A DNA stretch of 39,268 bases from Acidobacteriota bacterium (GTDB lineage: Bacteria > Acidobacteriota > Vicinamibacteria > Vicinamibacterales > UBA2999). Numbering within the stretch: the first letter of the stretch is position 1; the number at the start of each line of letters is the position of its first letter. Below, one piece after another: positions 2,720-16,176 of this stretch. Under the pieces are notes generated by a model, which searched no databases, was not told the origin of the DNA, and saw only the letters and a program-made list of their open reading frames with translations. The position numbers and the translations under genes were made by a program. The stretch covers positions 1 through 39,268 of the forward strand of contig JALHON010000008.1 of assembly GCA_022842985.1 (NCBI GenBank). Reading direction: 5' to 3'.

Positions 2720-4585
2720 ATGGCACGCGCGCCGTTCGCCGTCCTGATCGTGAGCGCACTGGCCGGTCTCGGCGCGATGGCGGCATGCGGGGCCGAGGTC
2801 GGCCCCGCGGTGGCCGCCCAGGCGCCGCCGGCGCGCCGTTTCGACACCTCACCGGACGCGCCGCTCATTCCCGGCCCCACACGGACGACCTGGGCGCCGG
2901 GGCTCCAGGCGCCGATTCCGCCCCGCGCGACCACGTGCGCCACGGTGGAGGCCTCGAGTTTCGGCGACGGCGCGCGCGAGGCGTCAGCCGCGATCCAGGA
3001 GGCCATCGACCGCTGCCGGCCCGGCGAGACGGTGCAGCTGTCCGCCGGTCGCTTCCTCCTGAATCAGTTCGTCACCCTCAACAAGGGCATCACCCTGCGC
3101 GGGGCCGGTCCGTCCGCCACGCGCCTCGTGAAGACCAACGGCGCGCGCGCGGGCACCTACCTCGTCGACGATGCGTCGCCCATCATCATCGTCGGGCCGG
3201 CGCGGTGGCCGAAGCCCGACCCGGGCACGTCGGTCGATCTCGCGACGGATGCCGTCGCCGGCGCGCTGTCGGTCACGGTGAAGGATGGCGATGCGTTCGC
3301 CGCGGGCCAGTTCGTGCTGCTCGACCAGGACGACTTCAATGCCGGCGCGTGGCTGCCACTGCCGCGGCGGCTCGCCAGCGACGCGCCGGCGCGCATCTGG
3401 GCCTCCGATCTCGTCGTCTTCAATCGCCACGATCCCGCCGAGGCGAGCGACGGCACGTTCCCGGACTCGCTCAGCTGGTTCTCGCGTGGCAACCGGCCGG
3501 TGAACGAGATCAAGGAAATCGCGCAGGTGCGTGGCAACGTCGTCACGTTCACGACGCCGGTGCACATCGGCTACACGGTGGCCAAGGCCGCGCAGTTGAC
3601 GCGCTACTACGCCGACAACGTGCACGTGCGCGAGGCCGGTGTCGAAGACCTGGGCGTCTCGGGCGGCGGCAACGGCAACATCCGGTTCGAGGCGGCGGCG
3701 TACTCCTGGATGAAGAACGTCGACGACACGTTCTGGTCGGGGGAAGGTGTGGCCATCAGCCACTCGTTCCGCGTCGAAGTCCGCGACTCCGCCATCCACC
3801 ACTCGGCGTTCTCCGAGCCCGGCGGCGCGGGTTACGCCATCAGCCTGGCCAGCGGGTCGTCCGAGATCCTCATCGAGAACAACGCCGTCCACGATGCCAA
3901 CAAGGTGATGGTGGTGCGGTCGTGTGGCGCCGGCTCGGTCATCGGTTACAACTACATGGACAACGGCGTCATCACGTCGCTGCCCGACTGGGTCGAAACC
4001 GGGCTGAACGGCAGCCACATGGCCGGCAGCCATCACATCCTCTTCGAGGGCAACCAGGCCTTCAACTACGACTCCGACAACACACACGGCAGCGCCATCG
4101 CCATGACCGTGTTCCGCAACCACCTGGTCGGCCGGCGCGAGGGATATCCCGGCACCGTCAACCAGCGCGCGGCCGGCCTCATGTTCGGCTCCTGGTGGCA
4201 TGTGTTCATCGGCAACGTCCTCGGCGAAGACGGCCGGACGGACGGCTGGCAATACGAAGATCCGGGGGACGGCTCGACCACGTCGCGCAGCGACGCGTGG
4301 CAGGGCGGCTCGGTCATCTGGCGGCTCGGTTACGACCCCGGACATTGGGATCAGGTTGCCGATCCGCGGGTGCTCGAGACCGTCCTGCGTGACGGCAATT
4401 TCGACTACGTCACGAAGACGGTGCGCTGGGATCGCGTTGCGCGTCCGTTGCCGGCGTCGCTGTATCTCAAGGAGAAACCGGCGTTCTTCGGCGCCGAGCC
4501 GTGGCCCTGGGTCGATGCGACCGGCGCGCGGAAGCTCGGGACATTGCCGGCCCGCCGCCGCGCGGCCCCGCCCCCGATGCCGTAG
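2720..4585 (+). CDS. Secreted right-handed beta-helix (pectate-lyase-like) protein, copy A
   Basis: The 621-residue protein has a signal peptide ending near AMAACG; Cys23 could be a lipidation site, although Met at -3 makes a poor lipobox. The N-terminal part shows the start of a Pectate_lyase_3-type beta-helix, with AIQEAIDRCRPGETVQLSAG and FLLNQFVTLNKGITLRGAGP. Repeating coils follow (IRFEAAAYSWMKNVDD, ILIENNAVHDANKVMVVRS, HHILFEGNQAFNYDSDNTHG). This fold is used by polysaccharide lyases and some GH28/GH55-like hydrolases. No catalytic triad can be assigned safely. It is closely related over its full length to the protein encoded at 17385-19208. Sitting within an exopolysaccharide locus, it may cut or modify the polymer outside the cell. 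ATG 2720 was chosen because it starts the signal peptide. Confidence 0.87.
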   Translation: MARAPFAVLIVSALAGLGAMAACGAEVGPAVAAQAPPARRFDTSPDAPLIPGPTRTTWAPGLQAPIPPRATTCATVEASSFGDGAREASAAIQEAIDRCRPGETVQLSAGRFLLNQFVTLNKGITLRGAGPSATRLVKTNGARAGTYLVDDASPIIIVGPARWPKPDPGTSVDLATDAVAGALSVTVKDGDAFAAGQFVLLDQDDFNAGAWLPLPRRLASDAPARIWASDLVVFNRHDPAEASDGTFPDSLSWFSRGNRPVNEIKEIAQVRGNVVTFTTPVHIGYTVAKAAQLTRYYADNVHVREAGVEDLGVSGGGNGNIRFEAAAYSWMKNVDDTFWSGEGVAISHSFRVEVRDSAIHHSAFSEPGGAGYAISLASGSSEILIENNAVHDANKVMVVRSCGAGSVIGYNYMDNGVITSLPDWVETGLNGSHMAGSHHILFEGNQAFNYDSDNTHGSAIAMTVFRNHLVGRREGYPGTVNQRAAGLMFGSWWHVFIGNVLGEDGRTDGWQYEDPGDGSTTSRSDAWQGGSVIWRLGYDPGHWDQVADPRVLETVLRDGNFDYVTKTVRWDRVARPLPASLYLKEKPAFFGAEPWPWVDATGARKLGTLPARRRAAPPPMP

Positions 4586-9524: not shown

Positions 9525-11057
9525 ATGGAACGCGCGCACACAGACACCCCTGGTTCGCCGGGCAGGACGGATGACCGAGTCCGGGCGCTGCGCTCGGACA
9601 CCGGGGCTCCTGGCCCAGCCGCCTCGCCGGCGCCGTTCGTGATCGAAGCCCCGCTCATCGACGTGACGCTCCTCGCTGACTACGGGTGGTTCGTCGCCCG
9701 TGCCCTGCGACGGCACGTCCGCGGCGCGGTCGCCATCTTCGCGCTGACCATGGGCATGCTCGCGGTGGCGCTCAGCGTGTGGCCCCGCACGTATCAGATC
9801 GATGGCCGCCTGCTCGTGCAGAGCAGCAGCCTGGTCTCGTCCCTGGTCAACCCCGAGCGCGGAGCGGGCCGCGAGAACCGCGGGCCGACGCTGGCGGCTC
9901 AGGAGATCGTCAAGAGTCGCGACAACCTGCTCGCGATCATGAAGGCCACGAACCTCATGGAGGAGTGGGCGCGCACCCGCACGCCACTCTTCCGCCTGAA
10001 GGATCAGGTGACGGCGATGCTGCGCGGCGCGCCCACCGACGAAGAGCGCCTCGATGCCATGGCGGGTCTGCTCGAAGATCGGCTGCAGGTCGGCGCCAAC
10101 GACGAAGGCACGGTCGGCTTCGTGCTGAAGTGGCCCGACCCCGTCATGGGGCGCCAGCTGGTCGATAGCGCCATGCAGTCGTTCCTCGAGCATCGGCGCG
10201 TCACGGAGGCGGCGGCGATCGCCGACTCCATTGCCATCCTCGACCAGTCGGCCGATGCGATCGAGTCGGAGATCAAGGCCACCCTCGAACAACTGCCACC
10301 GCCGCCGGGGGCGCCGCGTCGCATCGTGCCGCGCGCGCCGGCGAGCAGTGGTCCGTCGGCCGAGGTGACCGTGCGCCTGGCGCGGCTGCGTTCCGCGCTC
10401 GAAGAACGCCAGCAGGAGGCCGCCCGGCTCGAAGGCGTGCATACCCAGCAGGTGGCCGAGGCGCAAGCCCGGTTGTCGGCGGCGCTCACGATCTACACGG
10501 AAGGTCATCCCACGGTCCAGGCGCTCAAGCAGACCGTGGCCCGGCTGTCCGCCGAGCCGGCGGAACTGGTGGCGGCACGGCGCGAAGCGAGTGCGCTCGA
10601 GACCCAGTACGACGAACTCAGCACGCGCGTCGGCGCCCTCACGGCGCGCGCCGAGCAGGACCGCCTGATGTCCCAGATCGAAGCGGCCACGCCGGCCGCG
10701 TCGATGGAACTGATGCGGCCCTCGACCGGCGAGGCCGACCCGACCGGACTACGGCTCAAGAATCAGATGGCCGAGCTCGCCATGGTGCAGGCCCGTGGGA
10801 GCGCCGCGCGGGCCGAACTCGCGTCCGCGCAGGCCGGCTTCAAGTATCAGTACTCCGTCGTCCGCCCGCCGCAGCTGCCGCGTGCCCCCATCGCACCGAA
10901 CGTCGTCGCGATTGCCGGCGCCGGCACGGTGGCCAGCCTGTTGCTGGCGCTGGCGTTCGCCATCGCGGCGGATCTGATGACTGGCCGGGCGCTCGAAGCG
11001 TGGCAGGTCGAGCGCCAGGTGCGTGCCCCGATCGCCGTACGGGTCTCGACGCTGTGA
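9525..11057 (+). CDS. Wzz-type polysaccharide chain-length determinant without kinase domain
   Basis: The 510-residue protein has the polysaccharide co-polymerase layout. Transmembrane helix 1 (about residues 67-87, AIFALTMGMLAVALSVWP) is followed directly by TYQIDGRLLVQSSS, the usual Wzz-domain strand. A long periplasmic region follows, predicted to be coiled coil (for example RLARLRSALEERQQEAARLE and TIYTEGHPTVQALKQTVARL). A Pro-rich PPQLPRAPIAPN leads to transmembrane helix 2 (about 455-480) and a short cytosolic tail. It ends without a Walker motif or Tyr cluster, so any kinase would be separate; the small protein at 12631 is the obvious candidate. It would set polymer length together with the polymerase, whose start codon overlaps its stop (GTGA). 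Confidence 0.87.
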   Translation: MERAHTDTPGSPGRTDDRVRALRSDTGAPGPAASPAPFVIEAPLIDVTLLADYGWFVARALRRHVRGAVAIFALTMGMLAVALSVWPRTYQIDGRLLVQSSSLVSSLVNPERGAGRENRGPTLAAQEIVKSRDNLLAIMKATNLMEEWARTRTPLFRLKDQVTAMLRGAPTDEERLDAMAGLLEDRLQVGANDEGTVGFVLKWPDPVMGRQLVDSAMQSFLEHRRVTEAAAIADSIAILDQSADAIESEIKATLEQLPPPPGAPRRIVPRAPASSGPSAEVTVRLARLRSALEERQQEAARLEGVHTQQVAEAQARLSAALTIYTEGHPTVQALKQTVARLSAEPAELVAARREASALETQYDELSTRVGALTARAEQDRLMSQIEAATPAASMELMRPSTGEADPTGLRLKNQMAELAMVQARGSAARAELASAQAGFKYQYSVVRPPQLPRAPIAPNVVAIAGAGTVASLLLALAFAIAADLMTGRALEAWQVERQVRAPIAVRVSTL

Positions 11058-12634
11058 GCACGGCGGCCACACTGCCCGGCGGGATGCGGTTCACCGCGGC
11101 TCCCTTCGTGCTGGCCGCGATGATGGCGCTGACCACCGTGGTCACGCTGATTGTCAGCAACGGCGACCCCGTTGCGGCGGTCGCGCCTCTCGGGCTCGCC
11201 GCCCTGCTCTGGGGCGTGTGTGTGGCGCCGTTGCGAACGTCGCTCGGTGTCGCCATGCTGCTCGGGCTGGCCGCCGACCGCCCGGGTGACACCGACGGGT
11301 TGTGGTCGTCGCCGCTCGCGCCGCTCGGCGGTGTGCTGTTCCACAATCTCAACCACGTCGTGAGCGTCGATGCGCTGAAGTTCAGCGGGGTCTTCGCTCT
11401 CGTCGGTCTGTTGCTGGCCGTGCGGGTGTATCGCTGCCTCGTCGGGCGCGCCGCCGACACGCCAGGCAGCCTGCCGCTGGCGGCACCGATGCGCTGGGCC
11501 CTCGGGCTGGCCGCGCTCGCGCTGTTCGCGCTCGCCGCGTTCGGCGTGGCGCGCGGCGGTGATCTGCAGGCCGCCAAGATGCAGACGCAGGGGTATCTGC
11601 AGCTGCTCGCTGTCGCCTACCTCTTCGGCGTCAGCCTGCGCGGCACGGTCGACTACCGCTGGCTCGGGCGGGTCATCGTCATCGGCGCGGCCATCAAGGC
11701 GGCGATGGCGCTGTGGGTGCGGGCCACGCTGCCAGCCCAGTTCCCCGACCGTTGGGGCGTGATGCGCGACCTCGAGTACGCGACCAACCATGGCGACTCC
11801 CTCGTCTTCGCCTGTGCGGTCGCGGTGCTGCTCGGGCCGCTGTTCCATCAACCGACCCGACGGCAACTGTGGGCGTTCGCGCTCATCGTGCCGTTCATCA
11901 TCGCCGGCCTCATCGCCAACGATCGGCGCATCGCCTGGGTGCAGCTCGGCCTCGTGGTCGCCGCCTTCTTCCTGATGAATCCCGCCGCGGCGCTGTCGCG
12001 GCGCACGGCGCGGGCCCTGGTGCTCGTCTCGCCGCTGCTCGTGGCCTACGTGCTCGTCGGCTGGTCGTCGTCGGCCCGTATCTTCGGGCCGGTCAGTTTC
12101 GTCCGCAACATCGTGCAGCCCGAACGCAGCGACGGATCGCTCGACCGGTCGACCCTGTTCCGGGACATCGAGAACTTCAATCTGGTGCAGACGTTCCGCC
12201 CGAATCCCGTCCTCGGCACCGGGTTCGGGCATCCGTTCGTCCAGGCCGTCGAGGGCGATTCGCTCGCCGACTTCGTCGACTACGAGTTCCTGCCGCACAA
12301 CTCGATGCTGGGCGTCTTCGCCTTCACCGGTGCCGCCGGGTTCACGGCGCTCTTCTCCACCCTGGTCGTCGGCATGCTGCTCGCCGCCCGTGCCGCGGCC
12401 CGCGCGGCCACCGCGGATGCGGCGATTGCCGCCGTGGCCGTCATCGGCTGCCTCGCCTCGTACATCGTGCATCTGTGGGCAGACATCGGCTTCACCGAGG
12501 CGCCCACGATCTTTCTCGTGGGCCTGGCGCTGGCGATTGCTGGCCAGCTGGCCGTCTCGACCGGCGAATGGCGCCAGACGGCGCCACCGGCCGTCAAGTC
12601 GTTGACAGTTTTCGGCTCCGGAGGGGCGGCGTGA
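11054..12634 (+). CDS. Wzy/O-antigen ligase family polymerase
   Basis: The protein has 526 residues with about a dozen membrane segments. The Wzy_C-type signature lies between residues about 365 and 440: a periplasmic loop with FRDIENFNLVQTFRPNPVLG, TGFGHPF, then LPHNSMLGVFAFTGAAGF. The RNPVLGxGxG...HN pattern is the hallmark of O-antigen ligases and Wzy-like polymerases. In this gene set a role in joining repeat units at the periplasmic face is the best fit. The start is GTG 11054, overlapping the chain-length gene stop as GTGA. The end overlaps the next gene in the same way, so all three are probably translationally coupled. Confidence 0.87.
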   Translation: MSTAATLPGGMRFTAAPFVLAAMMALTTVVTLIVSNGDPVAAVAPLGLAALLWGVCVAPLRTSLGVAMLLGLAADRPGDTDGLWSSPLAPLGGVLFHNLNHVVSVDALKFSGVFALVGLLLAVRVYRCLVGRAADTPGSLPLAAPMRWALGLAALALFALAAFGVARGGDLQAAKMQTQGYLQLLAVAYLFGVSLRGTVDYRWLGRVIVIGAAIKAAMALWVRATLPAQFPDRWGVMRDLEYATNHGDSLVFACAVAVLLGPLFHQPTRRQLWAFALIVPFIIAGLIANDRRIAWVQLGLVVAAFFLMNPAAALSRRTARALVLVSPLLVAYVLVGWSSSARIFGPVSFVRNIVQPERSDGSLDRSTLFRDIENFNLVQTFRPNPVLGTGFGHPFVQAVEGDSLADFVDYEFLPHNSMLGVFAFTGAAGFTALFSTLVVGMLLAARAAARAATADAAIAAVAVIGCLASYIVHLWADIGFTEAPTIFLVGLALAIAGQLAVSTGEWRQTAPPAVKSLTVFGSGGAA

Positions 12635-13095
12635 GTAGTGCGACGCGGGCGGGAGAGGTCACGCGAGACGTCGTGAACCCCCATTCGCCCGAGGAATTCG
12701 AGTGGCAGCGTCTCTGGTTCTCACTGAGGGCCCACACGTGGCGATCGCTGGCGGTGGTTGGCATTGGTAGTGCATCCAACGCCACTGGCGCGGCAAACAA
12801 GCTGATTCAGGTCGCCGCACGGGATGAAAAGACACCCGTAGGGATGATTTCTACCCTGGGAATGTCTTTTCAGGACACGACTTCGGTGGTGACGAGACTT
12901 CGTGACGATGGCGCGGGTCTCACCCTCGTCGTGTGTGACTCGCCGGCGGTGAATCCGGCGGCGATTCCTGTGGTGCATGCCGTGTCAGGAGTGGTGATCG
13001 TCGTGAAACTTGGAGAAGCCAGACTCGACGCGGTTGCGCGCGCCGTAGAGCTTGCGGGCCGCGACAGGGTCCTCGCGACCGTCACGGTCGGGTAG
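12631..13095 (+). CDS. Small degenerate tyrosine-kinase-like (CpsD/BY-kinase) P-loop protein
   Basis: The 154-residue protein looks like a shrunken bacterial tyrosine kinase domain. SPEEFEWQRLWFSLR matches the segment before the P-loop in CpsD/Wzc proteins. SLAVVGIGSASNATGAANKL occupies the place of the Walker A loop and the following helix, but the GK[ST] core is replaced by SNAT, so the ATP-binding lysine is missing. LTLVVCDSPAVNPA matches the Walker B strand with its Asp, and VVIVVKLGEARLDAVARAVE the following helix. There is no Walker A' DxD motif and no C-terminal Tyr cluster. It is therefore probably not an active kinase and may act as a structural partner of the chain-length protein. 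The middle of the gene is visibly less GC-rich than its neighbours. The GTG start overlaps the polymerase stop. Confidence 0.75.
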   Translation: MSSATRAGEVTRDVVNPHSPEEFEWQRLWFSLRAHTWRSLAVVGIGSASNATGAANKLIQVAARDEKTPVGMISTLGMSFQDTTSVVTRLRDDGAGLTLVVCDSPAVNPAAIPVVHAVSGVVIVVKLGEARLDAVARAVELAGRDRVLATVTVG

Positions 13096-13105
13096 CGGGG
13101 CGAAC

Positions 13106-14167
13106 ATGCTGACCAACCGCTCCCTCGCATCGACGCCCGGAATCATCCTCGCCGGCACCTTCCCCTGGGCGAACTCGCCCTTCGAGCGCCTCGCACCGCG
13201 CCCGCTCGTGCCTGTGGCGCACCGCCCGCTCATCGGCTTCGCCCTGTCCTGGCTCGAGGATGCCGGGATCTCGCGCGTCGTCGTCTGTGGCAACCGGCAC
13301 AGCCGTGGCCTCGAACATCAGCTGGCCGGCGCCCTGTCGGGCCCGCTGGACCTGTCGTACTGCGAAGACGTGATGCCCCGCGGGGCGGCTGGCTGCGTGC
13401 GTGACGCGGCGGCCACCTGCGATGGCGACACGTTCGTCGTGGCTGACGCCTCGGCGATTCCCAGCGTCGACCTGTCCGAGCTGCTCGAAACGCACCGGGT
13501 GTCCGGCGCGGCGGCGACGATGGCCGTGTATCGCGAACCGCGCGGCGTGGGACAGTCGCCCTTGCAGGTGCCGGCCGGCATCTACGTGCTCGAGCGCCGC
13601 GTGATCGACTCGATCGCCGCCCACGGGTTCGTCGACATCAAGGAACATCTGGTGCCACGGCTGGGCCGGGCCGGCGAACGCGTGGCGACATTCGCCGTGG
13701 GCTCCGCCGTGCCGCGCGTGCTCAACGCCGGAACGTATCTGGCCGTGAACGACGTCGTGACCCAGAACACGACCGCCTCGCGCCTCGTGCCCGCCGGCTA
13801 CGAACTGCGTGGCGAAGCCCTCGTGCACCGTGATGCCATGGTCGAGGCGGATGTGACGCTCGTCGGCCCGGTCATCGTGGCGGCGGGCGCGCGGGTCGAG
13901 AGCCGCGCCGTGCTCGTCGGCCCGACGTCGGTGGGCTGCGACGCGGTCGTCGAAGCCGGGGCGCTCGTCTCGCGTTCGGCCGTGTGGCGGCGGTCGCACA
14001 TCGGCGCCGATGCGGTCGTGGACCGTTCGATCATCGGCGACGACGGCCTGGTCGCCCGCGATCGCCATGTCTACAAGGGCGTGGTCACCGGCGACGTCCG
14101 CCGCAGCTCGACCACAGTACCGGCCACCTTCGTGGTCGAGAGACAATCCCCCCGGTCGGCGGCGTGA
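13106..14167 (+). CDS. Nucleotidyltransferase-like protein with hexapeptide beta-helix, degenerate active site
   Basis: The 353-residue protein has an N-terminal part in the NDP-sugar pyrophosphorylase mould: GIILAGTFPWANSPFERL, then RPLVPVAHRPLIGFALSWLE and DAGISRVVV, and later FVVADAS where active enzymes have a metal-binding Asp. The GxGTRL loop and the Lys of PKP are not intact (the latter reads PRP), so catalysis is doubtful. The C-terminal third (residues about 245-325) is a left-handed beta-helix of hexapeptide-like repeats (LVGPVIVAAGARVESRAVLV, VGPTSVGCDAVVEAGALV). It could bind a nucleotide sugar or serve as a scaffold. ATG 13106 follows the preceding stop by 10 bp with a GCGGGG Shine-Dalgarno-like stretch. 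It closely resembles the N-terminal module of the next protein. Confidence 0.78.
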   Translation: MLTNRSLASTPGIILAGTFPWANSPFERLAPRPLVPVAHRPLIGFALSWLEDAGISRVVVCGNRHSRGLEHQLAGALSGPLDLSYCEDVMPRGAAGCVRDAAATCDGDTFVVADASAIPSVDLSELLETHRVSGAAATMAVYREPRGVGQSPLQVPAGIYVLERRVIDSIAAHGFVDIKEHLVPRLGRAGERVATFAVGSAVPRVLNAGTYLAVNDVVTQNTTASRLVPAGYELRGEALVHRDAMVEADVTLVGPVIVAAGARVESRAVLVGPTSVGCDAVVEAGALVSRSAVWRRSHIGADAVVDRSIIGDDGLVARDRHVYKGVVTGDVRRSSTTVPATFVVERQSPRSAA

Positions 14168-14373
14168 CCTTCCGCGCACACCGTCCGGCGCTCTGTTTCC
14201 GCCTGCGCGCGGCCGTTCTCCACGCGGAGGCGGTGTTCGGCCCTCGAGACGGAGGCCGTTCCAGGACGACGTGACCCGCTTTCCAGGAACGATTTCGACC
14301 ACCGGACTGCTGCGCTTGGTTGCCCCCCTCGGCTGCCCGGTCTGATTCACGTAAGGCAGAATCGGACGCGACG
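14168..14373 (+). other. 206-bp gap before the phosphoglycosyltransferase fusion
   Basis: This is the only sizeable gap inside the 9525-17371 block. CGTTCC (14257-14262) and GGAACG (14286-14291) form a weak inverted repeat, and TTCCAGGA occurs twice. No open frame with protein character fills it. It may hold a second promoter, so that the fusion and acyltransferase genes could be expressed separately. Confidence 0.4.
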
Positions 14374-16176
14374 ATGAAGGTCTGGCCAGTAGTAATTGAC
14401 TCGACGCCGGCGTACGCGCTCGGCGGCCCCGGCGACTCCTCGTTGCTGTCGGCCCCGCTCGGCCGCGAGTTGCTCGTCTCGGCCCTCTGCCGGGAGCTGC
14501 TGCAGGTCTCCGGAGACGTGCCGACCATCGTCGCCCCGCCCGATGCGGCGCCCGGGTACCGGGACCGCATCTCGGCGCTGGCCCCGGGCCACGTCACGGT
14601 CGTCGGGTCGGCCCGGGAACTGGCTCACGTGCTGGTGCCGGCCGAAACCTCCGACCTGCTGCTGTTCATCGATCCCCGCTGCCTGCCCGCGCGCGGCTGG
14701 AATCTGATCGACCTGGTGGCGCAGGCGCTCGAGACGCCCGGCATGGCCCACCATCTCGTGGCCTACGCCGCGGACGTGGGCGGCACGCTCGAATACGTCA
14801 ACGTCGACGACGAAGGCCTGGTCCGCAGCGTCCATCGCTACTTCCGGCCCGTCACCTGGCCCTTCATCGTCGGCGTGGCGGCGTGCCTCGTGCCGGTCTC
14901 GAGCGGCGTGCTCCCGCTGTCGGCGCTGCCGGCGTCCCTCTTCGACCTCCGCGAGCACTTCGTCTCGCGCGGCGTGCCGAGTCACGATGTCGCCATTGCT
15001 GCCGGCGCCTTCGACCTCAACAGCGAAGACGGCATGCTGGCCGCCATGGAACGGTCCGTGCTCGATGCCGTGGCCGCCGATGGTGCGTCCACCGTGTTCG
15101 TCGGCAGCGGCCACATCGTCGATCCGAGCGCGCGCCTGCTCGGGCCGATCGTGGTGCTCGAGGGCGCGCGGATCGAGGCCCGTGCGACGGTGATCGGCCC
15201 GACGGTGATCGGCCCGGGGGCGAGTGTGGCCGCTGACGCCCTCATCGCCCACGTCAGCGTGGGGGCTGACGCCGTCGTGCCCGCCGGGCGGAGCCTGCGT
15301 GACCGCGTCTGGTGCGCCTCGAGCGGCGCCAGCATCGATGCGGCCGCGGCGGCCGCGGCGGAGCGTCGTCCGGCCTCCTTCAGCGGCCGGCTGGCCAGGC
15401 ATGGCGCCGACGCCGTCGAACATGCGCCGTCGGCCGCCCCGCAGGTTGCCGCGTCCCGGTGGTATCCCGCCGTGAAGCGGGCCTTCGACGCGACGACGGC
15501 GGCCGTCGCCCTCGTCGCGCTCGCGCCGCTGCTCGTCCTCACGTCGGTGCTCGTGTGGCTCGATTCCCGCGGGCCCGTGTTCTTCCGCCACACCCGCGAA
15601 GGTGTGGGCGGACGGCCGTTCGGCTGCTTCAAGTTCCGCACGATGCTGCACGGCGCCAACGACATGCAGCGGGAGCTCAAGAGCAAGGACAAGCTCGACG
15701 GCCCGCACTTCAAGATGGAACGCGACCCGCGAGTCACCCGCGTCGGCCGCTGGCTGCGGCTGACCAATCTCGACGAGCTGCCGCAGCTCGTCAACGTGCT
15801 CGTGGGCGACATGAGTCTCGTCGGCCCGCGGCCGTCGCCGTTCCGCGAGAATCAGATCTGCGTTCCCTGGCGGGAAGGCCGGCTCTCGGTGCGGCCCGGC
15901 ATCACCGGGATGTGGCAGATCTGCCGGCACGATCGTGATGCCGGCGACTTCCACCAGTGGATCGAATACGACCTGCTCTACGTGCAGCACATGGGGGCGA
16001 TGCTCGACTTCAAGGTGATGGCCGCGACGGTGCTCACCCTGGGCGGCAAGTATCCGGTGCCGGTCTCCTGGCTGGTGCGCCCTGGCACGCCCGGGCCGGT
16101 CGTCGCGCCGACGCCGTCCGAGCCCGCGCAACGCGTACTGTCGCGCGCCGAGACGCCCGTCCGCTCGGTGCGGTGA
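14374..16176 (+). CDS. WcaJ-type phosphoglycosyltransferase fused to a nucleotidyltransferase/hexapeptide-like module
   Basis: The 600-residue protein has two parts. Residues about 1-240 look like a degenerate nucleotidyltransferase (SAPLGRELLVSALCRELL, DLLLFIDPRCLP) and 245-325 form hexapeptide coils (LLGPIVVLEGARIEARATVI, GPTVIGPGASVAADALIA). From about 363 comes a small monotopic phosphoglycosyltransferase (PF02397 type): one membrane helix (ATTAAVALVALAPLLVLTSV), KFRTM at about 419, the catalytic Asp-Glu in LTNLDELPQLVNVLVGDMSL near 465, VGPRPSPF, and RPGITGMWQI. It would move a sugar-1-phosphate from a nucleotide sugar to undecaprenyl phosphate and so start repeat synthesis. WcaJ itself has a multi-helix/CoA-binding-like N-terminus; this extension is different. 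ATG 14374 is chosen; an in-frame TTG at 14320 is less likely. Confidence 0.88.
   Translation: MKVWPVVIDSTPAYALGGPGDSSLLSAPLGRELLVSALCRELLQVSGDVPTIVAPPDAAPGYRDRISALAPGHVTVVGSARELAHVLVPAETSDLLLFIDPRCLPARGWNLIDLVAQALETPGMAHHLVAYAADVGGTLEYVNVDDEGLVRSVHRYFRPVTWPFIVGVAACLVPVSSGVLPLSALPASLFDLREHFVSRGVPSHDVAIAAGAFDLNSEDGMLAAMERSVLDAVAADGASTVFVGSGHIVDPSARLLGPIVVLEGARIEARATVIGPTVIGPGASVAADALIAHVSVGADAVVPAGRSLRDRVWCASSGASIDAAAAAAAERRPASFSGRLARHGADAVEHAPSAAPQVAASRWYPAVKRAFDATTAAVALVALAPLLVLTSVLVWLDSRGPVFFRHTREGVGGRPFGCFKFRTMLHGANDMQRELKSKDKLDGPHFKMERDPRVTRVGRWLRLTNLDELPQLVNVLVGDMSLVGPRPSPFRENQICVPWREGRLSVRPGITGMWQICRHDRDAGDFHQWIEYDLLYVQHMGAMLDFKVMAATVLTLGGKYPVPVSWLVRPGTPGPVVAPTPSEPAQRVLSRAETPVRSVR

Follow-up and report, generated by a model that had tools for sequence, protein, structure and literature searches.

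Two adjacent genes of an Acidobacteriota genome probably encode a two-part, catalytically dead nucleotidyltransferase (NTase)–left-handed-helix (LbH) accessory unit that gates or scaffolds the phosphoglycosyltransferase (PGT) of exopolysaccharide initiation, as judged from residue alignment, structure models and gene order. One gene encodes a free pseudo-NTase-LbH protein; the next joins a second, more diverged module of this kind to the PGT itself (Table 1). Both genes lie in the window (the whole stretch of 39,268 nucleotides that was analysed), which belongs to a 4.97-Mb draft genome; the closest relative with the locus is an Acidobacteriota MAG of the same genus (G001, record JAGNJW010000011), and their class is probably Vicinamibacteria. 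Because genes for EpsV-like and Wzy_EPS-like proteins adjoin in the window, the locus most probably belongs to an exopolysaccharide operon of the Wzx/Wzy type. No exosortase was found in the window with a profile built from the exosortases of pseudo-NTase loci.

Table 1. Features of the window (E, E-value; Z, structure-match score)
Feature	Position	Strand	Evidence	Remark
EpsV-like polysaccharide co-polymerase	9525..11057	+	NF041864, E 2.2e-61, below that model's cut-off	context
Wzy_EPS-like polymerase	11000..12634	+	NF041870, E 9e-104, below that model's cut-off	context
Small uncharacterised protein, 154 aa, directly upstream of the free module	12631..13095	+		conserved in G001
Free pseudo-nucleotidyltransferase-LbH protein, 'DIKE' module, 353 aa	13106..14167	+	Pfam, AlphaFold, residue alignment	
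Altered catalytic loop of the free protein, LAGTFPWANSPFERLAPRPLVPV	13148..13216	+	alignment with intact GMPP-type enzymes of the same and related genomes	canonical: LAGGxGTRLxPLTxxxPKPxxPV
Signature DIKEHLVPRL of the free protein	13634..13663	+		DIKE served as scan pattern
Pseudo-nucleotidyltransferase-LbH-phosphoglycosyltransferase fusion, 600 aa	14374..16176	+		
Fused degenerate NTase-LbH module, residues 1-312	14374..15309	+	hhalign to free modules; structure match, Z 21, to GMPPA/GMPPB complex	
Predicted monotopic PGT domain, residues about 366-556	15469..16041	+	PF02397	membrane helix, KFRTM, dyad D467-E468, GPRP

Fold of the free and fused modules

The free protein (353 codons at 13106-14164, with a stop codon that extends to 14167) matches PF00483 (NTP_transferase) at E 2.9e-8, above the gathering score, and also matches hexapeptide/LbH models in Pfam. 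Its AlphaFold model has a pLDDT of 84, and the best Foldseek matches are 8x7s, VTC1-KJC2, GMPPA/GMPPB and eIF2B. The fusion is 600 codons long (14374-16173, its stop codon ending at 16176), and its start is backed by an alignment of nine homologues. Pfam identifies PF02397 (Bac_transf) at residues 368-555 (E 2.9e-58), preceded by weak hexapeptide repeats; no NTase model in Pfam matched the N-terminal ~230 residues. NCBIfam models of large PGTs match the fusion from residue 341 onward only, and they did not detect the large-PGT N-terminal region in it.

Profile comparison of the whole free and fused modules gave a probability of 98.4% (hhalign). As hexapeptide repeats can inflate such a whole-module score, the NTase halves were compared alone: the fused half matched the free half with a probability of 95.9 and canonical enzymes with 29.8; two unrelated controls gave 0.4 and 0.2. 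Superposed by VIA-align, the model of the fused module matches GMPPA/GMPPB, VTC1, AGPase and eIF2B over ~280-302 residues, mostly with Z of 17-21. These models assign both modules to the GMPP/eIF2B-type NTase-LbH fold. The original prediction of an NTase/LbH part joined to a PF02397 enzyme at 14374 is borne out by Pfam and the structure match, with the coordinates as it gave them, and the similarity that it proposed for the preceding stand-alone protein is upheld by the PF00483 and hhalign results; unrelated folds were not seen, since both modules match the same structures. AlphaFold modelled the whole fusion weakly (pLDDT 65; about 80 for the module, poor for the PGT part), and the module can therefore not be placed relative to the active site.

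The PGT part of the fusion is a predicted monotopic phosphoglycosyltransferase with intact catalytic residues. Across the PGTs of type I loci, where the PGT carries a DIKE module on the same chain, and of type II loci such as that of the window, the DE catalytic dyad and the GPRP motif are each present in 43 of 43 sequences, and KFRxM is kept with one F-to-Y exception. In a planctomycete locus (L118:9146-10795) the PGT has DK rather than the DE dyad and may be inactive, judging from this replacement; the other genes of the operon are retained. We also noted a GPRPSPFREN-type signature (15817-15855 in the window, residues about 482-494 of the fusion), the E and N of which occur in 34/34 type II PGTs; it is missing from most other PGTs sampled, and may mark a common donor sugar.

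Catalytic residues of the two modules

The alignment comprised 92 family rows, of which 40 were free modules, 37 fused, 11 type I and 4 exosortase-fused, with intact GMPP/RmlA-type enzymes of the same phylum as controls. Three of the free rows and three of the fused ones repeat a gene that is already in the alignment, and two type I rows seem to be repeats. The roles of the aligned residues are well established in the canonical enzymes RmlA, GlmU and GMPP. The metal-binding Asp of the NGD motif is present in all five canonical controls and in none of the 92 family rows. The PK lysine, found in every control and in 11/11 type I modules, is gone from all free (0/40) and fused (0/37) modules, with Arg at this position in 37 of the 40 free ones. 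The Arg of the GTR motif is mostly lost across the family; the GxGTR signature loop reads LAGTFPWANS in the free protein of the window and is missing from its fused module, and in 35/40 free rows a Trp stands where the Thr would be. The Asp of WxDIG is Arg in 34/40 free modules; it is kept in 28/37 fused modules.

What remains differs between the two modules. The EKP hairpin, a sugar contact, is deleted in every free row (40/40), whereas both glycines of the glycine loop (P-R-G-x-A/G-G) persist in all free (40/40) and all exosortase-fused (4/4) rows, in the form PRGAAG in the window. The fused modules have lost both N-terminal loops and kept the hairpin region, albeit with Arg in place of Lys (37/37). 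By alignment, then, free and fused modules are degenerate in complementary fashion. Since both lack the metal Asp, a reconstituted NTase activity is not expected. Several elements of the original prediction need to be qualified here. Its claim that both proteins had lost recognisable catalytic loops is right as to the catalytic residues, of which the alignment found no intact set, but too broad in that the free protein keeps the glycine loop. Its duplicated module does look like the outcome of a duplication, though not of one module present twice, given the opposite fates of loop and hairpin. Its suggestion that the module feeds the transferase, in the sense of donor synthesis, finds no support, as the catalytic Arg, Asp and (in type II) Lys are all gone.

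Pairing of the two genes across genomes

A full-length fusion occurs in 8 of the 193 surveyed genomes of the window's class, in four families and at nine loci; a ninth genome (G175) carries a relative truncated by the contig end (L044). The free module gave eight matches at 488-548 bits in seven of these eight fusion genomes, the next best match in the class scoring 164 bits; in the eighth, the contig breaks off within the free gene, the tail of which is visible. Within this class no genome was found to have the free module unless it also has the fusion.

A second scan, for the DIKE motif that free and type I modules share, covered GTDB-species genomes and returned 42 loci (33 in Planctomycetota, 6 in Acidobacteriota and 3 unassigned); the number is a lower bound, and the choice of motif biases it. 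Every free, exosortase-fused and type I module collected has an unchanged DIKE, as the scan itself demanded. At all 28 scan loci with both genes on the contig, the free gene is upstream of the fusion on the same strand; the other type II scan loci, L127 excepted, run out within 2.7 kb on the downstream side. Adding the window and four Acidobacteriota loci outside the scan to the 28 gives 33 distinct paired loci in two phyla, Acidobacteriota and Planctomycetota. A gene for a co-polymerase/BY-kinase separates free module and fusion at most planctomycete loci, where a heparinase II/III gene often lies upstream; the window's class has no BY-kinase between the two genes. At one locus (L072:7883-8722, genome G109) the intervening gene is dioxygenase-like, as identified by eye. 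Distances among free and among fused modules correlate with r 0.89 over the 33 loci, a value that is confounded by shared ancestry; it fits co-inheritance but cannot tell coevolution apart from common descent. The survey that the original prediction called for thus bears out a functional link of the modules to the initiating PGT, through strict co-occurrence, conserved order and the fusion of a free-type module to a PGT elsewhere.

Other architectures, selection and history

In the type I loci, found in KSB1 and some Acidobacteriota, no second module was seen; the DIKE module shares one chain with the PGT there, a Rosetta-stone link of free-type module and PGT. Fusions of this kind, like conserved gene order, indicate functional linkage, as distinct from contact. 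At four planctomycete loci (L117:6001-7998, L122:5908-7854, L124:85-1929 and L128:791-2455) a pseudo-NTase (DIKE) module is instead fused to a full exosortase domain, recognized in two of them by PF09721 (E 1e-56 and 5e-57) and in the other two by a profile built from these. All four carry exosortase motifs (EACNGLR/EACSGLR, NTLR/NTIR/NTFR and HDxGG), and in each a BY-kinase and a PGT fusion come after the exosortase fusion. At L127, a gene for a DIKE-type module (1909-2901) overlaps a separate exosortase gene (2898-3776) that precedes a BY-kinase; this arrangement is an unfused version of the DIKE–exosortase fusion.

The PGTs of types I and II form one clade (99/94), apart from 28 other PGTs. 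In the module tree the canonical enzymes stand beside type I; the other modules (free, exosortase-fused and fused) branch farther away. The simplest history that these trees suggest is that an ancestral type I-like fusion lost catalysis and was then duplicated; one copy would have become free or joined an exosortase, and the PGT-bound copy would have diverged further. Between the two copies in genome G058, dN/dS is 0.29 for the free module, 0.22 for the fused module and 0.23 for the PGT portion; the corresponding values between the window and G001 are 0.22, 0.36 and 0.33. Both modules are under purifying selection and are retained rather than decaying. With dN/dS of about 0.2-0.36 in both modules and the same gene order in two phyla, chance is excluded.

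Possible functions of the paired modules

We hypothesize that one pseudo-NTase would be covalently part of the PGT and the other a separate subunit, and that the two modules most likely bind each other by their LbH/NTase surfaces where the PGT sits in the membrane. So associated, they would gate or scaffold the first committed step of exopolysaccharide synthesis, in the way that GMPPA acts on GMPPB, KONJAC on VTC1, or eIF2B gamma/epsilon in their complex; the glycine loop retained by the free module could bind a nucleotide sugar. Such an accessory unit might work in either of two ways. It is possible, though we hold this tentatively, that the free module, on binding a nucleotide sugar or nucleotide, turns the PGT on or off allosterically according to donor supply. 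The glycines of its loop are kept in every free and exosortase-fused row, and GMPPA, itself inactive, binds GDP-mannose without catalysis and feedback-inhibits GMPPB (PMC11228364); on the other hand, the sugar-contacting hairpin is deleted from every free module and an Arg mostly replaces the Asp of WxDIG. The modules may alternatively be ligand-free adaptors that join the PGT to a BY-kinase/co-polymerase and, in some Planctomycetota, to an exosortase, a mechanism that we also put forward with some doubt. It would account for the BY-kinase gene that usually lies between free module and fusion in Planctomycetota and for the free-type module being fused to an exosortase at four loci and adjoining one at a fifth, and it has a precedent in the LbH domains that mediate the inter-subunit contacts of GMPPA/GMPPB (PMC9168903). 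Yet the pocket-type motifs PRGxAG and DIKE are conserved beyond the needs of a bare scaffold, and the window's class does without the intervening BY-kinase. More speculative, and in our estimate rather unlikely, is a general role of the DIKE pseudo-NTase as a mobile sensor/adaptor that couples nucleotide-sugar supply to the PGT-catalysed start of exopolysaccharide and, in certain lineages, also to sorting by the exosortase; the diverged module on the PGT would be its docking partner.

Two explanations dispense with an accessory unit altogether. Were the module still to make an NDP-sugar and channel it to the PGT, the overall NTase-LbH fold, the attached donor-using enzyme and the PK lysine kept in type I modules would find a ready explanation; with the metal Asp absent from all 92 rows, the GTR Arg mostly lost, the lysine lost from all type II modules and a separate intact GMPP-type gene in the window's genome (G000:C16), we consider this very improbable, and an active NTase is rejected on its residues. 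That the modules are decaying NTase copies left near a PGT by chance would agree with the lost catalytic residues, but it is contradicted by conservation of the pair across two phyla, by purifying selection of about the strength seen for the PGT and by invariant non-catalytic motifs; neutral decay is rejected on selection, and we give this explanation next to no credence. A dead accessory unit of the initiating PGT is the reading that we retain.

Relation to known systems and significance

The gamma and epsilon subunits of eIF2B are NTase-LbH proteins without NTase catalysis, and in our alignment eIF2B epsilon likewise has an Arg where the PK lysine would be; eIF2B differs from the window pair in being a translation factor complex with no PGT. 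KJC1 is a GMPPA-like paralogue that regulates VTC1, and KJC1 or KJC2 raises VTC1 activity (PMC9168903). GMPPA/GMPPB and KONJAC/VTC1, which are among the strongest fold matches here, share with the proposed unit an NTase-LbH paralogue (inactive in the case of GMPPA) that regulates a partner. The window pair resembles GMPPA/GMPPB in that an inactive NTase-LbH paralogue co-occurs with a partner in fixed gene order; it departs from both systems in that the catalytic partner is a PGT, not a pyrophosphorylase, and both NTase modules are predicted to be dead.

Fused monotopic PGTs are known as the Bi-PGT class (O'Toole et al. 2021, as described in PMC10942596). Like these, the window fusion has a domain at the end of a monotopic PGT core; it differs from the class as that source describes it in that the fused domain is a degenerate NTase-LbH that lacks the NTase catalytic residues, though it may have some other activity, and in the free paralogue present in every complete type II locus. 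Initiating PGTs are also under post-translational control, by EpsW on EpsZ and by CapB1 on CapM, and such control of these polysaccharide pathways has been called incompletely understood (PMC12802240). The proposed unit would likewise exert post-translational control on an initiating PGT, but the regulators in those pairs are a receiver domain (response regulator) or a tyrosine kinase rather than an NTase-like module. XrtA/PEP-CTERM EPS loci and the four planctomycete loci alike tie an exosortase to the same operon type; in the latter it is fused behind the pseudo-NTase, and the window has none. Our literature search, which did not take in the 2021 PNAS survey of PGT fusions, found nothing relevant on PGT–NTase or exosortase–NTase fusions and no report of the pseudo-NTase–exosortase architecture. 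With fused monotopic PGTs already known, and dead NTase regulators known in eukaryotes, their combination would appear to be a new variant.

When bacteria commit undecaprenyl phosphate and a nucleotide sugar to polysaccharide is an open question, and a conserved pair of apparently dead NTases on the initiating enzyme is a defined, testable candidate for such control. If correct, it would be a bacterial counterpart, with a different client enzyme, of the NTase-LbH proteins turned regulator in GMPPA, KONJAC and eIF2B. The exosortase fusions provide a protein-level link of exosortase to polysaccharide initiation; to our knowledge, the two had previously been linked mainly by genome context.

The gene upstream of the free module

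A family search gave no credible match for the 154-residue protein encoded upstream of the free module. It bears a weak, non-significant resemblance to the C-terminal half of BY-kinases; its identity as a degenerate BY-kinase was tested and is unconfirmed (hhalign probability 4.5). A stretch resembling this protein is joined to an EpsU-like glycosyltransferase at another locus (L073:3676-5736, minus strand).
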